A DNA stretch of 36,846 nt from a virus, in the IMG/VR virus record IMGVR_UViG_3300032524_000088, positions 1-36,846 of that record. One strand, given 5' to 3'. The position numbers and the translations under genes are program-made. Numbering within the stretch: position 1 is the stretch's first letter; every line of letters begins with the position of its first letter. The notes under the pieces are model-generated. The model was not told the origin of the DNA, did no database searches, and saw only the letters and a list, made by a program, of their open reading frames with translations. Below, in pieces: positions 858 to 30,891 of the stretch.

Positions 858-1180
858 GGCTTTGCCACTCCTTCGATGCCAACGGTTCTCAGCCAGCAAT
901 CGCCGCTAGAGCAGTAGTAGCAGGCCCAAAACCCGGACGGATCTGAATGGCTCGCTAACTCGGTTCCCGTGTAGGGCGTTGACATGGGCTTGCCTTGAAG
1001 CATGAACTGCCACCGCTCTCCATCGTCGCTCAACCTGGCCCGGACCATCTTGCAGTCCCGTTCGTCGCAACAAGCCTGGGTTACGGGGTCGCTCATAATC
1101 CAGCCCCACTCGTAGTGGGCTAAAGCTGGCGCCGCCCGCATTGAGAGGGTTAGCAGAAGCAGGACAAGAGCGCCCTTCAT
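827..1180 (-). CDS. Secreted cysteine-rich protein
   Basis: The product is 117 aa from ATG 1180, which overlaps the o-spanin stop as ATGA. A GTG nine bases upstream is possible but less likely. A clear signal peptide (MKGALVLLLLTLSM...APALAH) precedes a periplasmic domain with several Cys, including a vicinal pair (QACCDERDCK), WACYYC, DCW and a C-terminal PCFFVP. The arrangement resembles, from memory, small Cys-rich secreted proteins of alphaproteobacteria and their phages that start His-x-Trp/Tyr-x-x-x-Cys-Cys and end Cys-Phe-x-x-Pro. These are probably disulfide-bonded and of unknown function. It lies immediately after the spanins in the lysis cassette. Confidence 0.7.
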   Translation of the reverse strand: MKGALVLLLLTLSMRAAPALAHYEWGWIMSDPVTQACCDERDCKMVRARLSDDGERWQFMLQGKPMSTPYTGTELASHSDPSGFWACYYCSSGDCWLRTVGIEGVAKPCFFVPHAGG

Positions 1181-1419
1181 CTTGCACACGCCCTAGACTC
1201 GTCCCGCATCACCTTATAGTCCTTCATCCACTCTCGGAGCCGCGCTCCGACCGCCAACGTGGCCAATTCGTCGGCCACCTGGGCCTGCTCGTCTTGGCTG
1301 TACTCGATAACGTGAGGGCAGACGTTCGTCAGAACGACCCTAGAAGGTCCCGTCCCGCAAGAGGCGATCAAGATCATCATCAGTGCGAGGGCGGTTCCTG
1401 ACAGCGCGAATCTGTGCAT
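1177..1419 (-). CDS. o-spanin (Rz1-like outer-membrane lipoprotein)
   Basis: The 80-aa protein starts at ATG 1419 with a signal peptide and a lipobox ending LIASC (Cys about residue 21). A short periplasmic domain follows. Lipidation would anchor it in the outer membrane, where o-spanins pair with the inner-membrane i-spanin to fuse the two membranes at the last step of lysis. The gene begins inside the i-spanin gene in another frame, overlapping it by 80 bp, which is the classical Rz/Rz1 arrangement. Identification rests on the lipobox, size and overlap, not on sequence similarity, which is weak among spanins. Confidence 0.78.
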   Translation of the reverse strand: MHRFALSGTALALMMILIASCGTGPSRVVLTNVCPHVIEYSQDEQAQVADELATLAVGARLREWMKDYKVMRDESRACAR

Positions 1420-1582
1420 CTTTAATCTCCACGGCTTTGCGGGCCATCCCCGCCTCAATCGATGCCTTAGCCGCCTGCTCGCCCTTCCGGTAGATGCCGA
1501 AGACAACGAGCAAGACCGCCACGGCGATCGCTCCATAAATGAACAGCCTGGACTTGGCGGCGCCGAGTAGACCCAGGATCAT
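1340..1582 (-). CDS. i-spanin (Rz-like)
   Basis: The 80-aa protein starts at ATG 1582, overlapping the stop of the muralytic enzyme gene (ATGA). An N-terminal membrane segment (RLFIYGAIAVAVLLVVFGIY, about residues 13-32) is followed by a charged helical, coiled-coil-like periplasmic part ending in a polar tail. This is the usual build of an i-spanin: type II inner-membrane anchor plus coiled coil that contacts the o-spanin. The overlapping downstream lipoprotein supports the call. A longer upstream frame exists but would put the membrane segment in the middle. Confidence 0.78.
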   Translation of the reverse strand: MILGLLGAAKSRLFIYGAIAVAVLLVVFGIYRKGEQAAKASIEAGMARKAVEIKDAQIRAVRNRPRTDDDLDRLLRDGTF

Positions 1583-2241
1583 CGCAGGCCCCGCGCCCTG
1601 TCGTTCAATCGGGCGTAGAGGATGTAGGCCACGCCAAGCAAGACAACCCCGCCGATGGCCCACGCTGGGACCCAGGTGAAGAACCGTTCCGCGACAGGGA
1701 TGACCGTGCTGACTTGATCCGCGTACTGCGCGGCGGTGCCTAGGACCGTACCAGCGGCCGCGACCTGCGCGCCCTGGACCGTCCGGCTTTTCTGTAGCGA
1801 TTTCGACCGCGGCTCGATGCCGGCGAGGACCAAGCCCTTGTCGATCTGGCTCTGGCTGTACGGCTGGATGCCGTTTTCGTGCTTGATGATGGCCTTGACC
1901 AGCGTCGACATGACCTTGTGGTCGTGGACGTCGAGAGTGGTCCCTGGCGCGACCCCCATGATCTGACGCACGTTCGCGGCATAGGAGTCGGTGTCGTTCT
2001 CGCTCGGCGGCGCCCAGCGTTCAATAATCTCCCGCACCGTGTCGATCGGCGAACCATCGGCCGCGCGCCGCTTGTCCTGGTATGTGATCAGAACCCGCGC
2101 CATTGCCCGGATGCCGTAGGCGGGGGAAACAAAACGGAAAAACTCTCCGTCGTCCGGCGGCGTGTCGAGGCCCTGCCACTGGGTGTTGCCCTTGCGTATG
2201 TTTGAAGGATTATGATTCCTGATTCCTCGAGGAAGCATCAT
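1579..2241 (-). CDS. Membrane-anchored muralytic enzyme (structural protein P5/endolysin-like)
   Basis: The N-terminus (RGIRNHNPSNIRKG, then WQGLD, EFFRF, YGIRAMARVL, IIERWAPPSEND, then Y-x-x-x-V) follows the pattern of a phage peptidoglycan-cleaving family usually labelled structural protein P5 or phage lysozyme. The conserved RN-x-NP-x-NIR start and RWAPP-x-EN block are visible. About residues 190-212 form a C-terminal membrane segment (AWAIGGVVLLGVAYILYARL), unlike a simple soluble endolysin. It is followed directly by spanins, so it is the probable cell-wall-degrading enzyme of lysis, although a virion role is possible. A Shine-Dalgarno-like GGAG lies just before the ATGATG start. The giant virion protein upstream has its own transglycosylase for entry, so the two activities probably serve exit and entry respectively. 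Confidence 0.75.
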   Translation of the reverse strand: MMLPRGIRNHNPSNIRKGNTQWQGLDTPPDDGEFFRFVSPAYGIRAMARVLITYQDKRRAADGSPIDTVREIIERWAPPSENDTDSYAANVRQIMGVAPGTTLDVHDHKVMSTLVKAIIKHENGIQPYSQSQIDKGLVLAGIEPRSKSLQKSRTVQGAQVAAAGTVLGTAAQYADQVSTVIPVAERFFTWVPAWAIGGVVLLGVAYILYARLNDRARGLR

Positions 2242-2256
2242 TATGGGCTCCTAACT

Positions 2257-5200
2257 CTATTGAAGGGTTTCGTCACGACTGCGACTCAGCTTTTCTCGTT
2301 TTTTCTCAATGCGAGCGCGTTCCTGCTCTGCCACGCCAGGACTCATAGCATTGCGGGACTCATCCCGATTGATGCGCTTTAATGCATCCGTCAACTCGCG
2401 GTCCTTTTGTTTGTATTCCCACGACCGCATTCTACGCTCGAAATCAACATCTAGCGGCTTGAGTTTGACGCCGACAGAACTCAATCCAGCCTGCGGGACA
2501 GAGTACGGGCGGTCCGAACTATCGCGAACGCCAAGGACCGCGCGCTCGATTTTGTTCCAGTACCACGAACCGGGGATCCATGCGGCCGACGGCATCCAAG
2601 AGCGCCACGCCCAAGCGCCTATGTCTGACAACTGCTCACCCTTGGTGTCGGTCAACGTGTTGAAAATCTCATCGCCTGTGAACGCCTGCTTATTCAGAAA
2701 TAACTCGAACCCCAGCATAATCGGTCCGCCCCATTGTAGCGGCGCAGGCAGGAACGGCATCTGCCCTTGGTTCATGTCGAACATATCCCCGCCGGGTATC
2801 CATCGGCGAATGTCGAGAAAAACTGGGAGCCCATTACGATCCCGCCACGGCATCCGCAGCATTCGCGGAACCATATAGACCCCAGGAATTCCGATCCAAG
2901 TGCTCCCCTTTTCCTCTTCGCGCATTACCCGACGCTCTTCGTCTTCGTCACCCGGCGCCAGCATGTAGGCCATTTCTGCTGCGATCCAACCGAGCAAAGT
3001 GTATTTCGCGATTTTCCAAGGTCTGTGCGCGACGTTTTGCGCGATCAACGGGGCCGCCCGGTAGATGTAGGAAGCAAAAGGCAGAACCGTCCCGCGCGCG
3101 GCGTTCACCCACGGCGCGCGGATGTCGTAATCAATAAACTGGCTGCGCGCGACACGCGCCGCGGTGGCGGCATCGTCACCCATAGCCAGGCGGCGGGTAT
3201 ATGTGGCCATTCGGAAGACTTCATCCTCCATCCGGTATAGATCAAGCGACGCCCTATCGAAGGCGCCGGCCAGCCTCACCGCCCCATTGATAGCCCGCAG
3301 GACGTTGTCAACGAGACTTAACTTTTGCGCCATCCCAGGCTGGCCAACTAAATTCTGGCGCGTGATCTTATCGAGAAGAGGCTTAAGCACCTTCTTACGC
3401 AATTCCTGCGACACGATATCGCCACCGAAAGCGCCATGCGCGACAGCATCTTTGTAGTGCTCGTCTTCCGTGACGTAAGAAACCAGGCCGCGGGCCAAAT
3501 CTTGAAACCGCACATCGGCAAGGTCCATCAGGGCAATATTGGCCATGACGTTGTTCATGTGAACGACAGGGCTGCGGGCGGTTTTGTTCTTCTTCCAAGA
3601 CGTCAGTATCTCGCCCCACAGTCCGGGGTTCGACATCTGATCCATTTCAGAAAGATCGCGCCAGATTTCGGGACGAACGTACATGCCAGAAAGGGCGCCC
3701 CATTTTTTCACGCCGCCGGTTTTGGTGATGGCTGTTTCCGGCACCCGCACCCAATCCGCGCCGCTGGCCAGTTGGTGTTTTAGCTCTCTGCCCTCAACAA
3801 CGACATCGTTGGGGCCAGGCTTTGTAACAGCCCAGTCTCCGTTCTTCGCAATGTCCGAGTACAAGCGTCCGGTCGATAGGTCGCGCGCGAAGTGCATGAA
3901 CGTCTTGGCGATCGCATACCGAGCGTCGACAATCTCGCCCATTTTCTCCCGTTCATCTTTGGTAAAGTCGCGCCAGAGAATGGCGTCCAGCCCCCTAACG
4001 GAGCGAATTTCCCAATCCCCTTGGTCTTGCCAACCTGAAAACCTAACCGGCACCGGCCCCTGGTCCACGGGCCAATACGCCAGCTTTGTGATGCGGTTCG
4101 GGCGCGGGCCTTCCCATACTTCTGTCGGCGGCAAGTCGGCCTGATCGCCTTCGCGGAGCGCCAGCACCTTGATCATCCGACCGACCGCGGCGCCGCGCGT
4201 GACACCTCCCCACCAAGGCGAACTGCGAAGCGTCTTCAACGGAACGACGCGCTCCATGCCGCGACCCTTGAAAGCATCGCCGAGCATCCCTTGCCGGCGC
4301 TTTGTTCGGAAGTCGTCGACCCATTTGATTAGAGGGCCAGCGGGTCCGCGCATGGTCTCCGATTCGTGCCGCAAGTAAGAGCGGTGCAAATACTTACCGC
4401 GGTTACGTTCGTAGGATTCGGCGCTGATAAGGCCGAGGTTTAAGAGTTCCTGACTGTACTCATCAATCGCCAGACGGATGTCGTCGGGCAGGCTTCCCCA
4501 CTGCCCCTCATTGATTTCCTCGCCAGTGAGGATGTCGTACAGGACTTTCGACTCTGCCAGCGTCGTCACGCCTTGAGCGGTCAGTCGCTCTACAATCTCG
4601 ACAGACTGAGCGCCGATGCGCCGTTCGTCCGTTTCGCGCTCCCTGGAACGCTGGATGTATGCGTCAGAAAGGCCGTAACGATCGATCAGTCCGGCGCGTG
4701 CCGTTTCCAAGATATGGGACATAAAGCCGAATCGGCCATCAGGGTCAATTTTGGTCTCGATCAGGGTCTTCTTTATTGCCTCATACATTTTTGTCGTTGG
4801 CGTAAAGTGTCCGTGCTCATCTATCCATGGCGTGAACGGTAGACGGATCGCGCGGTCAAGTGGTTGCCCGGCAGCGAGCCAGCGCATTATCCCGCTCTGT
4901 AGTTTGGCCGGGGGCGTTTTTATCGGCTTGTTTGCATCCGGCGGCTCACTTTCACCGACCGCGAATTTTTCCGTAGCGCCAACAGTATCGCTGTCCCTGG
5001 CAAGGGCCTGTTCGCTCGAGTAACTGGGCACCGGACGGAAAGCCTCGCGCTGGCCGACCTCGCCGCTTTCAAACGCGCGAAGAACATCTTTTAGGTTCTG
5101 GAAGCCACGTCCCCTCAATGCGTTAAACAGGCGTTGGAAGAAATCCTTAACCTTTTGCAAGAGCGGCTTGGTCGCGTTGTCGTACAGCTTTCCAGTGCGA

Positions 5201-26379: not shown

Positions 26380-27156
26380 CTAGTAGCCACTCCCCGTCAA
26401 ACCGGCGACATGGCCGGTGCCGTCAACGAGTATGTCGACGGGCTTTGTTGTTGCCAGTGGCAGTCCTGATATCACAACAAAGCGGGTGGCGTCCATAAGA
26501 TGGTCATTTTCCTTCACGACCGCGCCGTCCTTGTTCCGTCGATACAGCTTGTACTCGGCCTGCCAATTTCGGCATGAGGCGAAGACCTTCAACTTGCCGC
26601 CAGCAAGCCGTTGCCAAACCATTTGGATTCCGGCGGCTGCTGCTTTCTCCGCGAGGTGAAGGTTCAAACCAAGTTCAACATACTCGACAACCAGTCGGAT
26701 GCCGTCGCGCTGGCTCGAGCCGCGCGAGGCCGGATCGATGACCCCCGGTATCCATTTGCCACGCGCGTTGACCGCAGTGACATGGGTGGATGGCTCCGCA
26801 TGTGCTCGGTAATGCTCGGTGTAGAGATACGACACGTTGGCGTCAGGATCTGTCGCACACCATATCGCCGCGGTGCGGTTCCACCCGACGTCGAGGCCGT
26901 AGCACTTCGGCCAATACTCGGGGATTGAAAACGGCTGGACGACAATTTCAGAAAGGGGAAGGGGGTAGATGGCACCAGCGCCAAGTGCCGGGGCGCCCTC
27001 GGTGCGCGCATCCTTTAGATGCGGCTCGAAAGACGCGCTGAGTTCGGCCTTCTCCTGGGAGTTGAGGTGGGGGACATCGCCTAGTTAGCCCCAGCCAGCT
27101 TGCACGAGGTACTTCGTCGGGGTGACTTCAGGCATCCCGGCCCTCGTGACAAGCAT
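26380..27156 (-). CDS. Large terminase, C-terminal nuclease half, with an in-frame TAA at 27085-27087
   Basis: The frame carries the RNase H-like nuclease of TerL. Metal-binding acidic motifs are visible: YGLDVGWNRTAA, WIPGVIDPASRG and ENDHLMDATRF. Upstream, KYLVQAGWG and, after a stop, GDVPHLNSQEKAELS match the conserved segment that joins the ATPase and nuclease domains. The earliest ATG in frame is at 27156. A TAA after W-G interrupts the frame, and no ATG, GTG or TTG follows until GTG 26835, which lies after the first catalytic Asp. So as annotated the nuclease cannot be made by ordinary initiation. Possibilities are stop readthrough or hopping, joining to the ATPase half at the RNA level, or pseudogene. 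The catalytic residues are intact, arguing against long decay. The half is separated from its ATPase partner by an HNH and a RyR gene. Confidence 0.8.
27079..27090 (-). other. Putative recoding site: stop codon between two matched GGC codons in terL
   Basis: The four codons are GGC TAA CTA GGC on the minus strand. Removing nine nucleotides gives W-G-D-V-P-H-L, matching the usual W-D-D-V-P-H-L of terminases in length. Matched codons with the stop directly after the first are the layout of ribosome-hopping sites, for example T4 gene 60. Readthrough would also keep frame. No recoding has been shown, and a simple inactivating insertion remains possible. Confidence 0.4.
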
Positions 27157-27200
27157 GGCTGGGCAAGCGAGCCCCCTTTCTCATGTTGTCTGTTGCTGAT

Positions 27201-27578
27201 TTAGTCGGCATTACTTCCGGCATCGGTAGCCTCTAGGAATCGGGAGAGCGACGTTACGATCGCCCCGAACAGATGATCCTTCGACCGCAGATCGGTCGGC
27301 ATGTGGTCGTACTGCACCATACACGGATGCTCTTTGGTCTCGGCGTTTTTCATAACGCCGTAGCGCCACCCTGCCTGTTCCTTCTCGTCGTACCAGGACT
27401 GGTGCGACTCTTCCGGCGTCATATCAGGGTTTTGGATTTTGGCGACAACGCCATTCATTAAGCTGGTCTTCTGCCAGTCAGGGGCTTCGTCCCAGGCGAC
27501 CTGCGACGTGTCGCCGAGGCTTTCGCAATAAGCCCGGTTCACCTCATGGCAAACCCTCGCAATATCGATTTCCCTCAT
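27201..27578 (-). CDS. RyR-domain protein
   Basis: The product is 125 aa from ATG 27578, in a TAATG junction with the HNH gene. The sequence IARVCHEVNRAYCESLGD, then WDEAPDWQKTSLMNGV, PEESHQSWYDEKEQAGW, YGVMKNAETKEHPCMVQYD and LRSKDHLFGAIV is the single RyR repeat found in many phages and bacteria, named after ryanodine receptors. Its phage function is unknown. Here it lies with an HNH gene inside the split terminase locus, an uncommon place, so it was probably carried in as part of a mobile cassette. Confidence 0.85.
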   Translation of the reverse strand: MREIDIARVCHEVNRAYCESLGDTSQVAWDEAPDWQKTSLMNGVVAKIQNPDMTPEESHQSWYDEKEQAGWRYGVMKNAETKEHPCMVQYDHMPTDLRSKDHLFGAIVTSLSRFLEATDAGSNAD

Positions 27579-28246
27579 TAGTGCGTCCTTTCGTTCTCTG
27601 GCGGGTATCTCATATCCGGGGGGCCGACCGCCAGTGTGACGTCCCCCACGGCATTGACGAGCGTGAATATCGGCGTCATCGGCGCGCAACCCTCGCGGAT
27701 CAAAAGCTGGCCGTCCTTGTCGATCCGCATCAGCCAGCCCTGCCCGTCAGGGTGCGGGACCGCGAACAGATCCCCTGCCGGCGCTACAGGCCTCAGAAGA
27801 CCAAAGGCCAGGGATGCCGGCGCCATGTAGAACTGCCAATTTAGAGTAGGGTCGCCCTCGACGACTGCCACGTTGGGATCAAGCCCGACAATCTCGCACA
27901 TCGCGCAAGCCAGTTTCACATGCTCCGGGTCGACCTGGAATCCTAGCGGGTCTTGGCCCGCGGTCTCTAGCGCGATCGCAACACGTTCCTGTGGCATAGC
28001 GTTGGGCCGCGACGAAAGGGAAGCCTTTGTCGCATTGCACCCCCTGCAGATCAGGCGAAGGTTCTCGCGGTCGTCGCTGCCTCCATCTGCGCGGGTTATG
28101 ACATGGTCTAGGGTGGCGTGGGTGCTGGGCGGCTTGCCGCCGCTCATGTTCAGCACCATACGGCGCTGGCACTCAGGGCACCTCTTGTCCGTGCTTTCGT
28201 TAAAAAGCGATCGCCGAATATCTTTGCCGCCAGGAATTCTCGTCAC
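27578..28246 (-). CDS. HNH endonuclease with extra C-terminal domain, inserted in the terminase locus
   Basis: The product is 222 aa from GTG 28246 with AAAGGG upstream. The first 80 residues form an HNH nuclease: zinc pairs CPECQRRM and CRGCNATKAS, and catalytic LDHVITRADGGSDDRENLRLI. Residues about 85-222 are of unknown type (PEHVKLACAMCEIVGLDPNV, GWLMRIDKDGQLLIREG) and may be a DNA-binding part. The gene starts 33 bp after the stop of the TerL ATPase half and, with the RyR gene, parts it from the nuclease half. This is the behaviour of a free-standing homing endonuclease that inserts in essential phage genes. Confidence 0.82.
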   Translation of the reverse strand: MTRIPGGKDIRRSLFNESTDKRCPECQRRMVLNMSGGKPPSTHATLDHVITRADGGSDDRENLRLICRGCNATKASLSSRPNAMPQERVAIALETAGQDPLGFQVDPEHVKLACAMCEIVGLDPNVAVVEGDPTLNWQFYMAPASLAFGLLRPVAPAGDLFAVPHPDGQGWLMRIDKDGQLLIREGCAPMTPIFTLVNAVGDVTLAVGPPDMRYPPENERTH

Positions 28247-28278
28247 TGCTCGCCCTTTCCATACTGATATTTCGGAAC

Positions 28279-30891
28279 TTAACCCAAGTCGGTTCTAAAG
28301 TCATCGCCGCCCGGTTTCATTTCCGTCGGCATGAACGACAGCACGACCTCGGTCAGACCGAGAATGGGCGTAAATGTCAACATGATCATACCGCCAGATC
28401 CGGGCATGGACGATATGCCCGTCGTCCGAACTAGGCACTCGCCGTAGACATCCATCGGGCATTCCTCGTCGAGCCAAATGCCGTCTTGCTCTGTGCCCTC
28501 AAAAGAGCCGGAACCTTGTTGGTAGCTGTTGCCGACGCGGAACCCGTTGACGATCAATTCGTGGACGCCCTCGACGCCGACGCAGTAAACGTCTTTGTTG
28601 CCGGCCTCGGTGATGCTTAATATTTCTGCCCTAGGCCCCTTTGGTCTTGGCTTTATGTTGCACTCATTGTCACGATTCATCTTTCCTATTTCCAAAAACT
28701 TGATCCGCTCATGGCCGTGGAGCGGAACGTAGAACGTCTTGAATTTCTTATCTGGCCCGCTAAATTGGTTGGTCGTGAAAGTGGTTTTTACCGGGGCCTG
28801 AATATCCAACGTCCACAAAAGACGCTGCACGTCCGGGGCTAACCGAGGACTAGATGTGCTGTACGTCGCATCTTTCGAGGTCACAGACCCGTCGCAAGTC
28901 CAAAGCCACCGCATGAATAGTTCCCGCTGCCGATGCGGCAACGTAAAAACCCATGCTGGTATAAACTTGTCCAAAGATTTCAGCCCCCACAAACCGTCGG
29001 CCCTCAAACTTTCAGTCAAACGGTTGCGTTTGTGAAGAGACGACGCCACCCTGTACGTTATTGTGTCGCCCACACGATTGATGGATAGATCGACCGGCAG
29101 AATAGCCGATAGCGCCTCGACAATCGGCGGCTCATTACAGGTGAAGAAAGGGCTCCCGGCCCTCATGCACCCGTCGCCAATCATTACGGCCGTGGCTGCA
29201 ACCAGCCAATCATCGGTCTCGGCAGCGTCGTCTGGTTCATGGTACGCGATTGAAAGTTCGTCGCCGATCGCAAGATCTCCTGCCAGCACCTCGGCGCCGG
29301 CCGCCGTGAAAAAAGGATGGTTTGGCGTGGCCTCGATCGTTCCCGTCCTTGTCTCGATCAACAATACCGGAGCGTCAGAGTAGGCGTGGAGTTGAACGAC
29401 GGGCCTCGCATTCCCGTCTGGCGACCGAACTAATTCTCCCAATCTGACCTGATCAATCCCCCTCCATTCGCCGTTGGCCATCAAGACCCGTTCAGTAGCC
29501 GGGTGGCACTTAAAGCCAAGTGTCGACCACCGACCTGTCGGCTTATGCAACACCGGGATGGCATCGACGAAGTCGGCGACGCCCTGCTTCCAGGTCGGCT
29601 TGCCAAGCAGTTCGCCGGGGATCAGCCCCGTGCCGTCAACTGTCTTGTTGGTGCCGCCCTTGCCGATGATCTTGCCCAACATCTTGCGCTGGATGATGTC
29701 GCGGGTTGTCTCGTTGGTCTTCCCGGCGGCCCACCAATTAACCGGGCGCTTCCATCGCCGCCCTTCCCACCAGTCAGGATATTCGCCGGTGACGTGGCAT
29801 GTGGTCTCGTAGCCGCCGCCGCCTACGGTATTATGATGCACCATCCCGCCAGCAAGATAGTTGTGCAGTCTGGGAACCGTGAAGTCATATACATCTTGGC
29901 CGCCAATTGGTTCATAGGCTATGATGTCTTTGACTGACATCATAGGGATCGGGTATGGCCAGATTTTCCAAGGAGCGGCGGCTTCAATTAGAGGCGAGGC
30001 TGCCGGATTTAGTTGAGACGCAAAGCCTACAGCACACCCGAGTGGCGGTGATTCTCGGCGTGAGTGAAGACTGGGTTCAGCGAGCGTGCAAGCGTCTTGG
30101 CCTGATAACGCAGAAGACCGGGCCGCGGCCGAGTGGGCAGCGCCAACCAATCTTGCGGGGGGGCTATCGTTACATCTATCAGCCTGACCACCCATACGCG
30201 ACAAAGGCCGGGTATATGCTTGAGCATCGCCTTGTGATGGAAGAGAAGACTGGCCGCCACCTACTGCCTGGGCAGGTTGTCCACCATGTGAACGGGGACT
30301 CCCTGGATAACCGGCCAAAGAACTTGATGGTGTTCGAATCCAAGGCGGATCATCTGCGCCACGAACTGACAGGGAAATGCCCAAAGTGGACGCCAGCGGG
30401 ACGCGACCGAATGATAGCAGGGACTCGACAAGCCGCCATGCGCCGTCGACAAGCACGCGATGATGATCAGCGCACTCGACCCACTGACCGTTCCGAAGGT
30501 AAAGGCGGTAACATTGGTGGCGGCCGGATTTCTTGAATGGTGCGCTCGCTACCGCTGGCACTACCTGCATCCCATCCCATGACAGAACGCTAAACGGGAG
30601 GGCAGCCTCGAACAGCGACCCTACAGTTCTGCGGCCGGTTGGAGTGTCGATAAGTGTTTGAAAAGACAAACATTTTCCAATTCTGTTGCCAGCCATGAAA
30701 CACCGCTCGCGGTAGATCGCGCCGGCGCGGAAGAACTCGAGGTGCTTTTGATATTTGACGCGGGCGTAGGGGCCGGTGTCGGGGTACATGCTGTAGAACA
30801 GCCGCTGCCCGTTGCGGCGCTCGATTTCCTTCGTAAGGGCTTCTATGTCGTCGCCCTCGGGATCGGCACTAATCGATTCGAGCAGGCCCAT
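28279..30891 (-). CDS. Large terminase ATPase half carrying two inteins
   Basis: The frame of 870 codons holds three exteins of 73, 107 and 82 aa (262 aa after splicing). The N-extein (RLFYSMYPDTGPYARVKYQK, then MAGNRIGK) ends at the Walker A Lys. After intein 1 it continues TVGGGGYET, and after intein 2 SYQQGSGSFEGTEQDGIWLD with Walker B (IWLDEE) and the coupling motif LTFTP. The product would be the motor ATPase that packages DNA. It stops after DFRTDLG, before the usual nuclease domain, which lies in a separate frame at 26380-27156. Mutual dependence is likely: without splicing of intein 1 the P-loop is broken. No clear RBS stands right before ATG 30891; GGAG is about 17 bases upstream. 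Confidence 0.9.
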   Translation of the reverse strand: MGLLESISADPEGDDIEALTKEIERRNGQRLFYSMYPDTGPYARVKYQKHLEFFRAGAIYRERCFMAGNRIGKCLSFQTLIDTPTGRRTVGSLFEAALPFSVLSWDGMQVVPAVASAPFKKSGRHQCYRLYLRNGQWVECADHHRVLVDGAWRLVESLLSFGRVPLASTLGISLSVRGADDPPWIRTPSSSLAGYPGSPRSHGGQPAQAVGGGQSSLPSQGDAQAYTRPLSRMGGQADRCNDSPPARLVGAAHSAAARSSALSGQDACTLAEPSLHSRRESPPLGCAVGFASQLNPAASPLIEAAAPWKIWPYPIPMMSVKDIIAYEPIGGQDVYDFTVPRLHNYLAGGMVHHNTVGGGGYETTCHVTGEYPDWWEGRRWKRPVNWWAAGKTNETTRDIIQRKMLGKIIGKGGTNKTVDGTGLIPGELLGKPTWKQGVADFVDAIPVLHKPTGRWSTLGFKCHPATERVLMANGEWRGIDQVRLGELVRSPDGNARPVVQLHAYSDAPVLLIETRTGTIEATPNHPFFTAAGAEVLAGDLAIGDELSIAYHEPDDAAETDDWLVAATAVMIGDGCMRAGSPFFTCNEPPIVEALSAILPVDLSINRVGDTITYRVASSLHKRNRLTESLRADGLWGLKSLDKFIPAWVFTLPHRQRELFMRWLWTCDGSVTSKDATYSTSSPRLAPDVQRLLWTLDIQAPVKTTFTTNQFSGPDKKFKTFYVPLHGHERIKFLEIGKMNRDNECNIKPRPKGPRAEILSITEAGNKDVYCVGVEGVHELIVNGFRVGNSYQQGSGSFEGTEQDGIWLDEECPMDVYGECLVRTTGISSMPGSGGMIMLTFTPILGLTEVVLSFMPTEMKPGGDDFRTDLG
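28528..29508 (-). mobile_element. Intein 2 (327 aa) with LAGLIDADG endonuclease, before Walker B
   Basis: It covers TerL residues C462-N788, between STLGFK and SYQQGS. Splicing blocks are: A, CHPATERVLMANGEW; B, GTIEATPNHPFFT with the Thr and His; and C-terminal F/G, VYCVGVEGVHELIVNGFRVG then N. The last residues are G-N instead of the common H-N, a known variant; the +1 residue is Ser. The middle has two LAGLIDADG-type helices (LVAATAVMIGDGC and LFMRWLWTCDGS), each with its catalytic Asp, and a KFIPAWV block between. The homing endonuclease therefore looks active. Self-excision restores a normal TerL segment. Confidence 0.9.
29830..30672 (-). mobile_element. Intein 1 (281 aa) in the Walker A motif, with antisense nested HNH gene
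   Basis: It covers TerL residues C74-N354, between GNRIGK and TVGGGG, so the P-loop Lys-Thr pair is formed only after splicing. Block A starts CLSFQTLIDTPTGRRTVGS. Block B is WVECADHHRV, with His present but the usual Thr replaced by Ala. The C-terminal blocks are VYDFTVPRLHNYLAGGMVHH then N, with the H-N end and +1 Thr. No sense-strand endonuclease exists. Between the blocks is a hydrophilic stretch rich in Ser, Pro, Gly, Ala, Arg and Gln (about intein residues 100-230), which lies opposite the HNH gene at 29955-30536. The intein therefore seems to be a splicing domain whose homing enzyme is encoded on the other strand. Confidence 0.9.
29955..30536 (+). CDS. HNH homing endonuclease encoded antisense within intein 1
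   Basis: The product is 193 aa from ATG 29955, with an AGGGATCGGG ribosome-binding sequence ahead. The N-terminus holds a helix-turn-helix (LQHTRVAVILGVSEDWVQRA). Residues about 70-140 are an HNH_3 nuclease: YRYIYQPDHPYATKAGYM, then LEHRLVMEEKTGR, LLPGQVVHHVNGDSLDNRPK, then NLMVFESKADHLRH, with the catalytic His pair and Asn. A basic tail follows. It is the only plus-strand gene in the whole leftward block. It is fully inside the intein and covers intein residues about 46-240, including the antisense of block B. Its codon first, second and third positions face the intein's first, third and second positions. A promoter of its own is needed and I could not identify it. Confidence 0.88.
   Translation: MARFSKERRLQLEARLPDLVETQSLQHTRVAVILGVSEDWVQRACKRLGLITQKTGPRPSGQRQPILRGGYRYIYQPDHPYATKAGYMLEHRLVMEEKTGRHLLPGQVVHHVNGDSLDNRPKNLMVFESKADHLRHELTGKCPKWTPAGRDRMIAGTRQAAMRRRQARDDDQRTRPTDRSEGKGGNIGGGRIS

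Follow-up and report, generated by a model that had tools for sequence, protein, structure and literature searches.

An HNH endonuclease gene on the reverse strand of a phage terminase intein: a probable ambisense intein and its relatives

Introduction

Inteins that bear an endonuclease are known as single polypeptides with the endonuclease inside. What is to be made of an intein with no endonuclease in its own frame and a complete HNH gene on the opposite strand? This question is raised by the large terminase gene (terL) of IMG/VR record IMGVR_UViG_3300032524_000088, a viral sequence of 36,846 bases that was analysed over its full length and is called the window here. A preliminary description of the sequence had claimed that the first of two inteins in TerL is built in this way, and that having the splicing domain and the homing enzyme on opposite strands would be a distinct intein architecture. 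That claim is upheld by recurrence across phages, selection in two frames, avoidance of stop codons, predicted structure, and alleles with and without the element. The element is very probably an ambisense intein, with splicing encoded on one strand and what we infer to be the homing enzyme on the other.

The intein and the gene opposite it

The ATPase part of TerL is encoded at 28,279–30,891 on the minus strand, in an uninterrupted frame of 870 amino acids that matches PHROG 31467, PF14890 and PF14528. Its N-extein (30,673–30,891, minus strand) ends in MAGNRIGK, within Walker A; the window's TerL relatives (L251–L258) are empty at both intein sites and show an unbroken GAMCANRVGKT. Intein 1 occupies 29,830–30,672 (minus strand), exactly as first described, and runs for 281 amino acids from C1 to HHN followed by T. 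In TerL numbering it covers residues 74–354, from its first Cys (74) to its last Asn (354), and it splits Walker A at GNRIGK/T (a slash marks the insertion point here and below). When it is excised in silico, ERCFMAGNRIGK is joined to TVGGGGYETTCH and Walker A is intact. The splicing ends are intact, as had been claimed: C1, His71 (30,460–30,462) in the block B region (30,448–30,489, minus strand), Asp263 and His280-Asn281 in blocks F and G (29,830–29,901, minus strand) and the +1 Thr are all present. An RNA-level explanation is unsupported, since a search of the window with Rfam at gathering thresholds gave neither a group I nor a group II intron.

AlphaFold places residues 1–90 and 244–281 of intein 1 in a Hint domain, mostly at pLDDT >90, with no structure between them. 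The model aligns with the Mtu RecA mini-intein (3ifj) over 129 residues (Z 18.4, rmsd 2.3). The middle, residues ~91–243 (29,944–30,402, minus strand), has pLDDT ~42–57 and no secondary structure, and is a predicted disordered stretch with a sequence dictated by the antisense HNH gene. The claim that intein 1 has no sense-strand endonuclease is also borne out: no Pfam domain is found in the middle, and PF14890 alone recurs in the intein frame of the family. On this model, the intein 1 protein is a mini-intein with a long floppy loop, and the loop would be retained because its reverse strand is a gene.

That gene is a complete open reading frame (ORF) of 193 amino acids at 29,955–30,536 on the plus strand, with a match above cutoff to PF13392, the HNH_3 domain (E=8.6e-10), and a PHROG HNH match at 1.2e-21. 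Its AlphaFold model has a mean pLDDT of 88. The helix-turn-helix that had been noted is predicted at 29,970–30,104 (plus strand; helices 6–22, 27–34 and 38–48), and VIA-align matches it to helix-turn-helix proteins with Z 5–7.5. The I-HmuI-like catalytic region (30,225–30,335, plus strand; PF13392 over residues 91–127) reads EHRLVME...VVHH...N..N, and H110/H111, N119, N123 and H133 are invariant. The phase is as described, with HNH third codon positions opposite intein second positions, second opposite third and first opposite first. By DNA position the endonuclease lies between the N and C splicing blocks, but its tail overlaps the block B coding region, as the preliminary description had noticed, so the enzyme gene is not wholly between the splicing blocks. 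By all available sequence and structure criteria the insert is an intein and the enzyme a genuine HNH_3 protein. To judge from the frames, the element nevertheless fails the defining trait of endonuclease-bearing inteins, an in-frame endonuclease.

Recurrence across phages

Relatives in IMG/VR were gathered by HNH similarity. A scan with the window HNH gave six relatives at 43–52% identity, all of them antisense in an open TerL ORF, and a profile search gave at least 575, of which the best 80 were used. In 84 of 85 IMG/VR loci the HNH gene lies antisense in an ORF of 520–1,255 amino acids, in one shared phase. The one locus that departs from this is L084, where the gene is free-standing and the phase in question contains 11 stops. 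Nearly all relatives thus have the arrangement of the window. Genome contigs in GTDB add further antisense cases (L088–L091 and L096); the distant hits there are free-standing HNH genes and were used as controls, and plasmid records held distant HNH genes only. One antisense match, L092, was excluded from the family as GC-driven and without an intein. The window intein by itself gave no match in IMG/VR, and neither it nor the L034 intein gave any in cultured phages by tblastn; it was the HNH that first gave access to the family. Every family member examined has its endonuclease on the opposite strand and not as an in-frame intein domain.

Wherever both borders of an insert could be placed they lie within a P-loop or a motif resembling one and read C...[HKRA]N/[STC], with T, S or C as the +1 residue in every case. 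There are two insertion positions, GNRxGK/T in 17 of 63 representatives (including the window) and GGNR/SGKT-like in the other 46. Pfam Intein_splicing (PF14890) matches 58 of 62 inserts. Across 62 inteins C1, H71, D263, V266 and N281 are invariant, and H280 is nearly so. The host proteins are P-loop ATPases, mostly TerL (Terminase_6N in 28 of 64, Terminase_3 in 5), and also include DNA helicases and one SbcC-like ATPase. The bacterial contigs L089 and L090 (Acidobacteria) have an antisense-HNH intein in a helicase-like P-loop, GLFLGAG/SGKT, of a very large protein (antisense ORF from 2250), which means that such inteins are not confined to terminases. These two loci are intein-bearing and were excluded from the selection tests.

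Selection in two frames

Long antisense ORFs are common in GC-rich DNA, and the HNH frame could in principle be a shadow ORF, arisen by chance or through GC content opposite the meaningless middle of a mini-intein. In the window alone, the openness of the antisense HNH given the intein codons has P=0.04; this is a weak test, because the window is GC-rich. In the other direction, an HNH gene written with the codon usage of this phage is expected to place 6.7 stops in the intein frame (P(0)=0.0004).

Comparisons between relatives are more telling. Nine independent pairs with at least 85% DNA identity show 225 changes in the overlap. Of these, 168 leave the HNH protein as it is but alter an intein amino acid, where neutrality predicts 46, and 22 do the opposite, altering the HNH and not the intein, where 52 are expected. 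None of the 168 creates an intein stop, against ~10 expected from the opportunities counted. The preliminary description had held that changes silent in the enzyme usually alter the intein, and had proposed examining selection in both frames; the counts agree with the former, and the plus-strand HNH frame is constrained, most changes being HNH-silent. Differences at first, second and third codon positions of the TerL/intein frame number 444/225/1823 in the extein, 93/85/332 in the intein outside the HNH, and 68/225/47 in the overlap. In the same way, parsimony counts over 32 distinct inteins of 295 amino acids from one clade show a third-position excess in codons 1–80 and 261–295 and a second-position excess between, and since their HNH ORF spans codons 84–254, selection flips at its borders. 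The third-position excess in the splicing blocks points to protein-level selection on them.

Stop codons tell the same story. The 63 antisense HNH genes (9,549 codons) have no intein-frame stop where 281–302 are expected, whereas 26 free-standing relatives have 112 in the same phase against 117–128 expected, showing no avoidance. This is not circular, as the viral set was collected by HNH similarity and not by openness of the frame. Isoleucine preceding a codon that begins with A is ATA in 58 of 58 antisense cases but in 20 of 52 controls, and phenylalanine in that position occurs in 0 of 132 antisense cases but in 13 of 41 controls. As read from the codons, this bias in codons and residues is the visible cost of stop avoidance to the enzyme, and selection on the intein middle keeps it stop-free and does little else. 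The shadow-ORF explanation is refuted by the two-frame change counts, the stop avoidance and the clade-wide flip in selection; with an HNH protein and catalytic motif conserved across dozens of lineages, changes that are mostly HNH-silent and a model that folds well, its probability is next to nil.

Mobility and mini-inteins

Of 73 alleles that could be assigned in one TerL family, eight are filled and 65 empty. Each filled one has an intact HNH, and the empty ones read GGNRSGKT without a break; what separates the two states is always the entire element, never just the HNH. The insertion is in-frame and precise at a conserved site, and close homologues lack it. In loci L061 and L067 the element DNA is 99.8% identical, and the terL C-extein DNA 82.6%. 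On this sequence comparison, the element spreads horizontally between terL alleles. In the filled locus L171, the +1 serine codon is TCC where the empty L173 and L174 have AGT, a possible co-conversion footprint at the C-terminal junction.

A search based on the intein gave 79 inteins, 77 with an antisense HNH and two without. The latter (L280 and L298) are mini-inteins of 130–132 amino acids. Over the aligned splicing blocks they share 82–86% identity with the L034 intein, and they indicate that the intein can do without its middle. The preliminary description had named inteins at this site with a broken or missing reverse frame as grounds for giving up the proposal. Such inteins do exist, as these two of 79, but they leave the architecture standing: by analogy they resemble ordinary endonuclease loss in canonical inteins, loss is the simpler reading since HNH-bearing copies dominate, and they fit endonuclease loss in a homing cycle. 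A stop within the span of the HNH profile in 20 of the 79 inteins, all of one clade, was considered as decay and rejected, as these share an earlier HNH C-terminal end.

It is worth asking whether the HNH is an independent, free-standing homing gene that shelters in a mini-intein and has its target elsewhere. Free-standing HNH relatives exist, as do mini-inteins without the HNH, and both speak for such an origin. The closest HNH relatives, however, are nearly all in P-loop inteins in the same phase, the eight filled copies were never seen to differ from empty alleles by the HNH alone, and the HNH phylogeny tracks the insertion position (4 changes of position on the HNH tree against 15 in shuffles; 0 of 500 shuffles were as low). 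We regard an independent gene as unlikely.

Expression of the HNH gene

A Shine-Dalgarno match of at least 5 nt stands at the antisense HNH start in 25 of 63 genes against 7.2 expected, an enrichment that makes separate translation of the HNH likely, as far as start sites can tell. The ribosome-binding-site-like AGGGATCGGG that had been proposed for the window copy did not hold up, as this copy has no Shine-Dalgarno match by the test used. A promoter scan of the window gave a single candidate upstream of the HNH gene, a sigma-70-like TTGGCC-18-TATGAT at 29,896–29,925 (plus strand), at chance level (1 against 0.7 expected). Antisense transcription could precede that of terL, a late gene.

Cultured phages

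Nine cultured phages carry the element in their TerL gene: the Pectobacterium phages Ymer, Abuela, Sabo, Koroua, Amona, Taid and Pappous, Dickeya phage Setonix and Pseudoalteromonas phage PHS3. It was followed across the full locus in Ymer and PHS3; for the other seven the evidence is a pair of matches, to the HNH and to the C-extein, on opposite strands. The interrupted Ymer gene bears the annotation "hypothetical", and the terminase of Escherichia phage KW1E_UTAR shares 71% identity with its C-extein. Ahead of the matching part, the annotated KW1E_UTAR gene has space for only 37 residues and hence for no intein. In the PHS3 GenBank entry TerL is the C-extein alone and the HNH is a separate gene. 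The true TerL-intein ORF runs from 1152 to 3275 on the minus strand in the coordinates of the PHS3 locus (L259, KX912252.1 16188–21571); the annotation misses the Walker A part because the antisense HNH was called instead. As the carriers are propagated phages, TerL is presumably restored by splicing.

Comparison with known systems

The nearest published precedent is the ShiLan domain, an out-of-frame HNH insertion in an actinophage DNA methylase (Arsenault, Gosselin, Gogarten 2025, PMC11855218). Its authors found no intein or intron splicing, and the host methylase is dispensable (PMC11855218). ShiLan itself is among the HNH matches in cultured phages (H96). In both cases a mobile insertion leaves the host frame stop-free, meaningless and disordered, and an HNH is encoded in a different frame; the two HNHs belong to one broad family. 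The ShiLan HNH, however, is on the same strand, is made from the host transcript and has no splicing domain, whereas here the enzyme is on the opposite strand and the intein blocks are present. A further case comes from a Nitrospira MAG contig (L095, VGWY01000134.1, 1523–4489), where a family HNH lies antisense inside a DNA methylase ORF of 989 amino acids (~38% GC). Its methylase host and lack of intein blocks led to its exclusion from the family, and it is an antisense counterpart of the ShiLan insertion.

ShiLan and L095 raise the possibility that the window insert, too, is a tolerated insertion that does not splice and is kept in the host protein. This is very improbable: the insert has the full set of catalytic intein residues and the Hint fold, its splicing blocks are under protein-level selection, and in cultured phages it interrupts an essential ATPase at Walker A.

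Among canonical endonuclease inteins, TerL1-a sits at the P-loop Lys/Thr in mycobacteriophages (Kelley et al. 2016, PMC5050341), and the dCTP-deaminase intein of cyanophage CL131 has an in-frame HNH_3 (PMC6293099). These share with the present element the Hint blocks, the P-loop site, the endonuclease between N and C blocks and mobility. They differ in that their endonuclease is a domain of the intein polypeptide, whereas the enzyme described here is a protein of its own, encoded on the opposite strand. A canonical comparison is found within the same terL, as intein 2 (28,540–29,502, minus strand; PF14890, PF14528) has an in-frame LAGLIDADG endonuclease and relatives are empty at LGLK/SYQQGRG. 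Mini-inteins such as the Mtu RecA and Ssp DnaB splicing domains resemble the protein of the element without its loop, and L280 and L298 are natural versions of them; the difference is the long loop, retained here as a reverse-strand gene. No report of an antisense endonuclease within an intein was found in a literature search that left most subscription papers and all preprints outside its scope. The preprint bioRxiv 2025.01.02.630785 on non-canonical actinophage inteins, which PMC11855218 cites for overlapping frames, may by its title deal with similar arrangements and could hold a precedent.

Some observations weigh against the ambisense reading. I-HmuI is the intron-encoded HNH homing endonuclease of a phage group I intron, and it shares the HNH catalytic region with the enzyme described here, which differs in its N-terminal helix-turn-helix and intein context; the match between the two is modest (VIA-align Z 7.0 over 74 residues), and a Foldseek search with the model of the enzyme yielded nothing significant (best E 0.07). 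The window copy has no clear Shine-Dalgarno, and its promoter-like site is at chance level. The two mini-inteins without the HNH also count here, and kinship among the TerL proteins could account in part for the grouping of the HNH tree by insertion site.

Other features of the terminase region

The terminase in the window's phage group is split (window 26,380–28,539, minus strand, and L251, L253, L255, L257 and L258). The ATPase ORF stops soon after the C motif (...MPQEMRLD, stop), and a second ORF downstream (MPEITPSRYRVDCGWEDVPHL...) encodes the nuclease part. Between the two parts the window has an HNH gene (27,578–28,246) and a RyR-domain gene (27,201–27,689). The nuclease part has an in-frame TAA at ~27,081–27,137 (minus strand), within an apparent 9-nt insertion inside GW...GDVPHL that relatives lack; a disabled gene, an alternative start and an assembly error are all candidates. 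A stretch coding for MPEVxPTK is present twice, at ~27,135 and ~27,215 (minus strand): the nuclease part has it at its start, and the RyR ORF, in another frame, at its end. This suggests that a duplication took place at the insertion boundary.

Proposed mechanism and significance

On one strand, a class-1 Hint intein interrupts the TerL P-loop and would excise itself from the precursor. On the other, where canonical inteins hold an in-frame endonuclease, a separate helix-turn-helix/HNH_3 protein is encoded, leaving the intein middle as a predicted disordered linker with its amino acids set by the HNH gene. The HNH would be made from an antisense transcript and would cleave empty alleles of co-infecting genomes at their P-loop codons; the whole element, HNH included, would then be copied in by recombination.

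The family is likely to represent an undescribed, widespread and old class of selfish element, with separate splicing and homing halves, placed in Walker A of phage ATPases, in which enzyme expression is uncoupled from the host gene, possibly early and antisense to a late gene. The enzyme presumably targets P-loop codons, which are among the most conserved in phage genomes, and a resistant empty allele would be hard to evolve there. The partnership of splicing and homing would be kept by base pairing and not by peptide bonds, and the ambisense design would explain how a "mini-intein" can stay mobile. The family also offers a large natural set of antisense overlapping genes in which two constraints are cleanly separable along the DNA. 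The architecture causes annotation errors, as in PHS3 TerL, and phage inteins annotated without an endonuclease are worth re-reading on the other strand.

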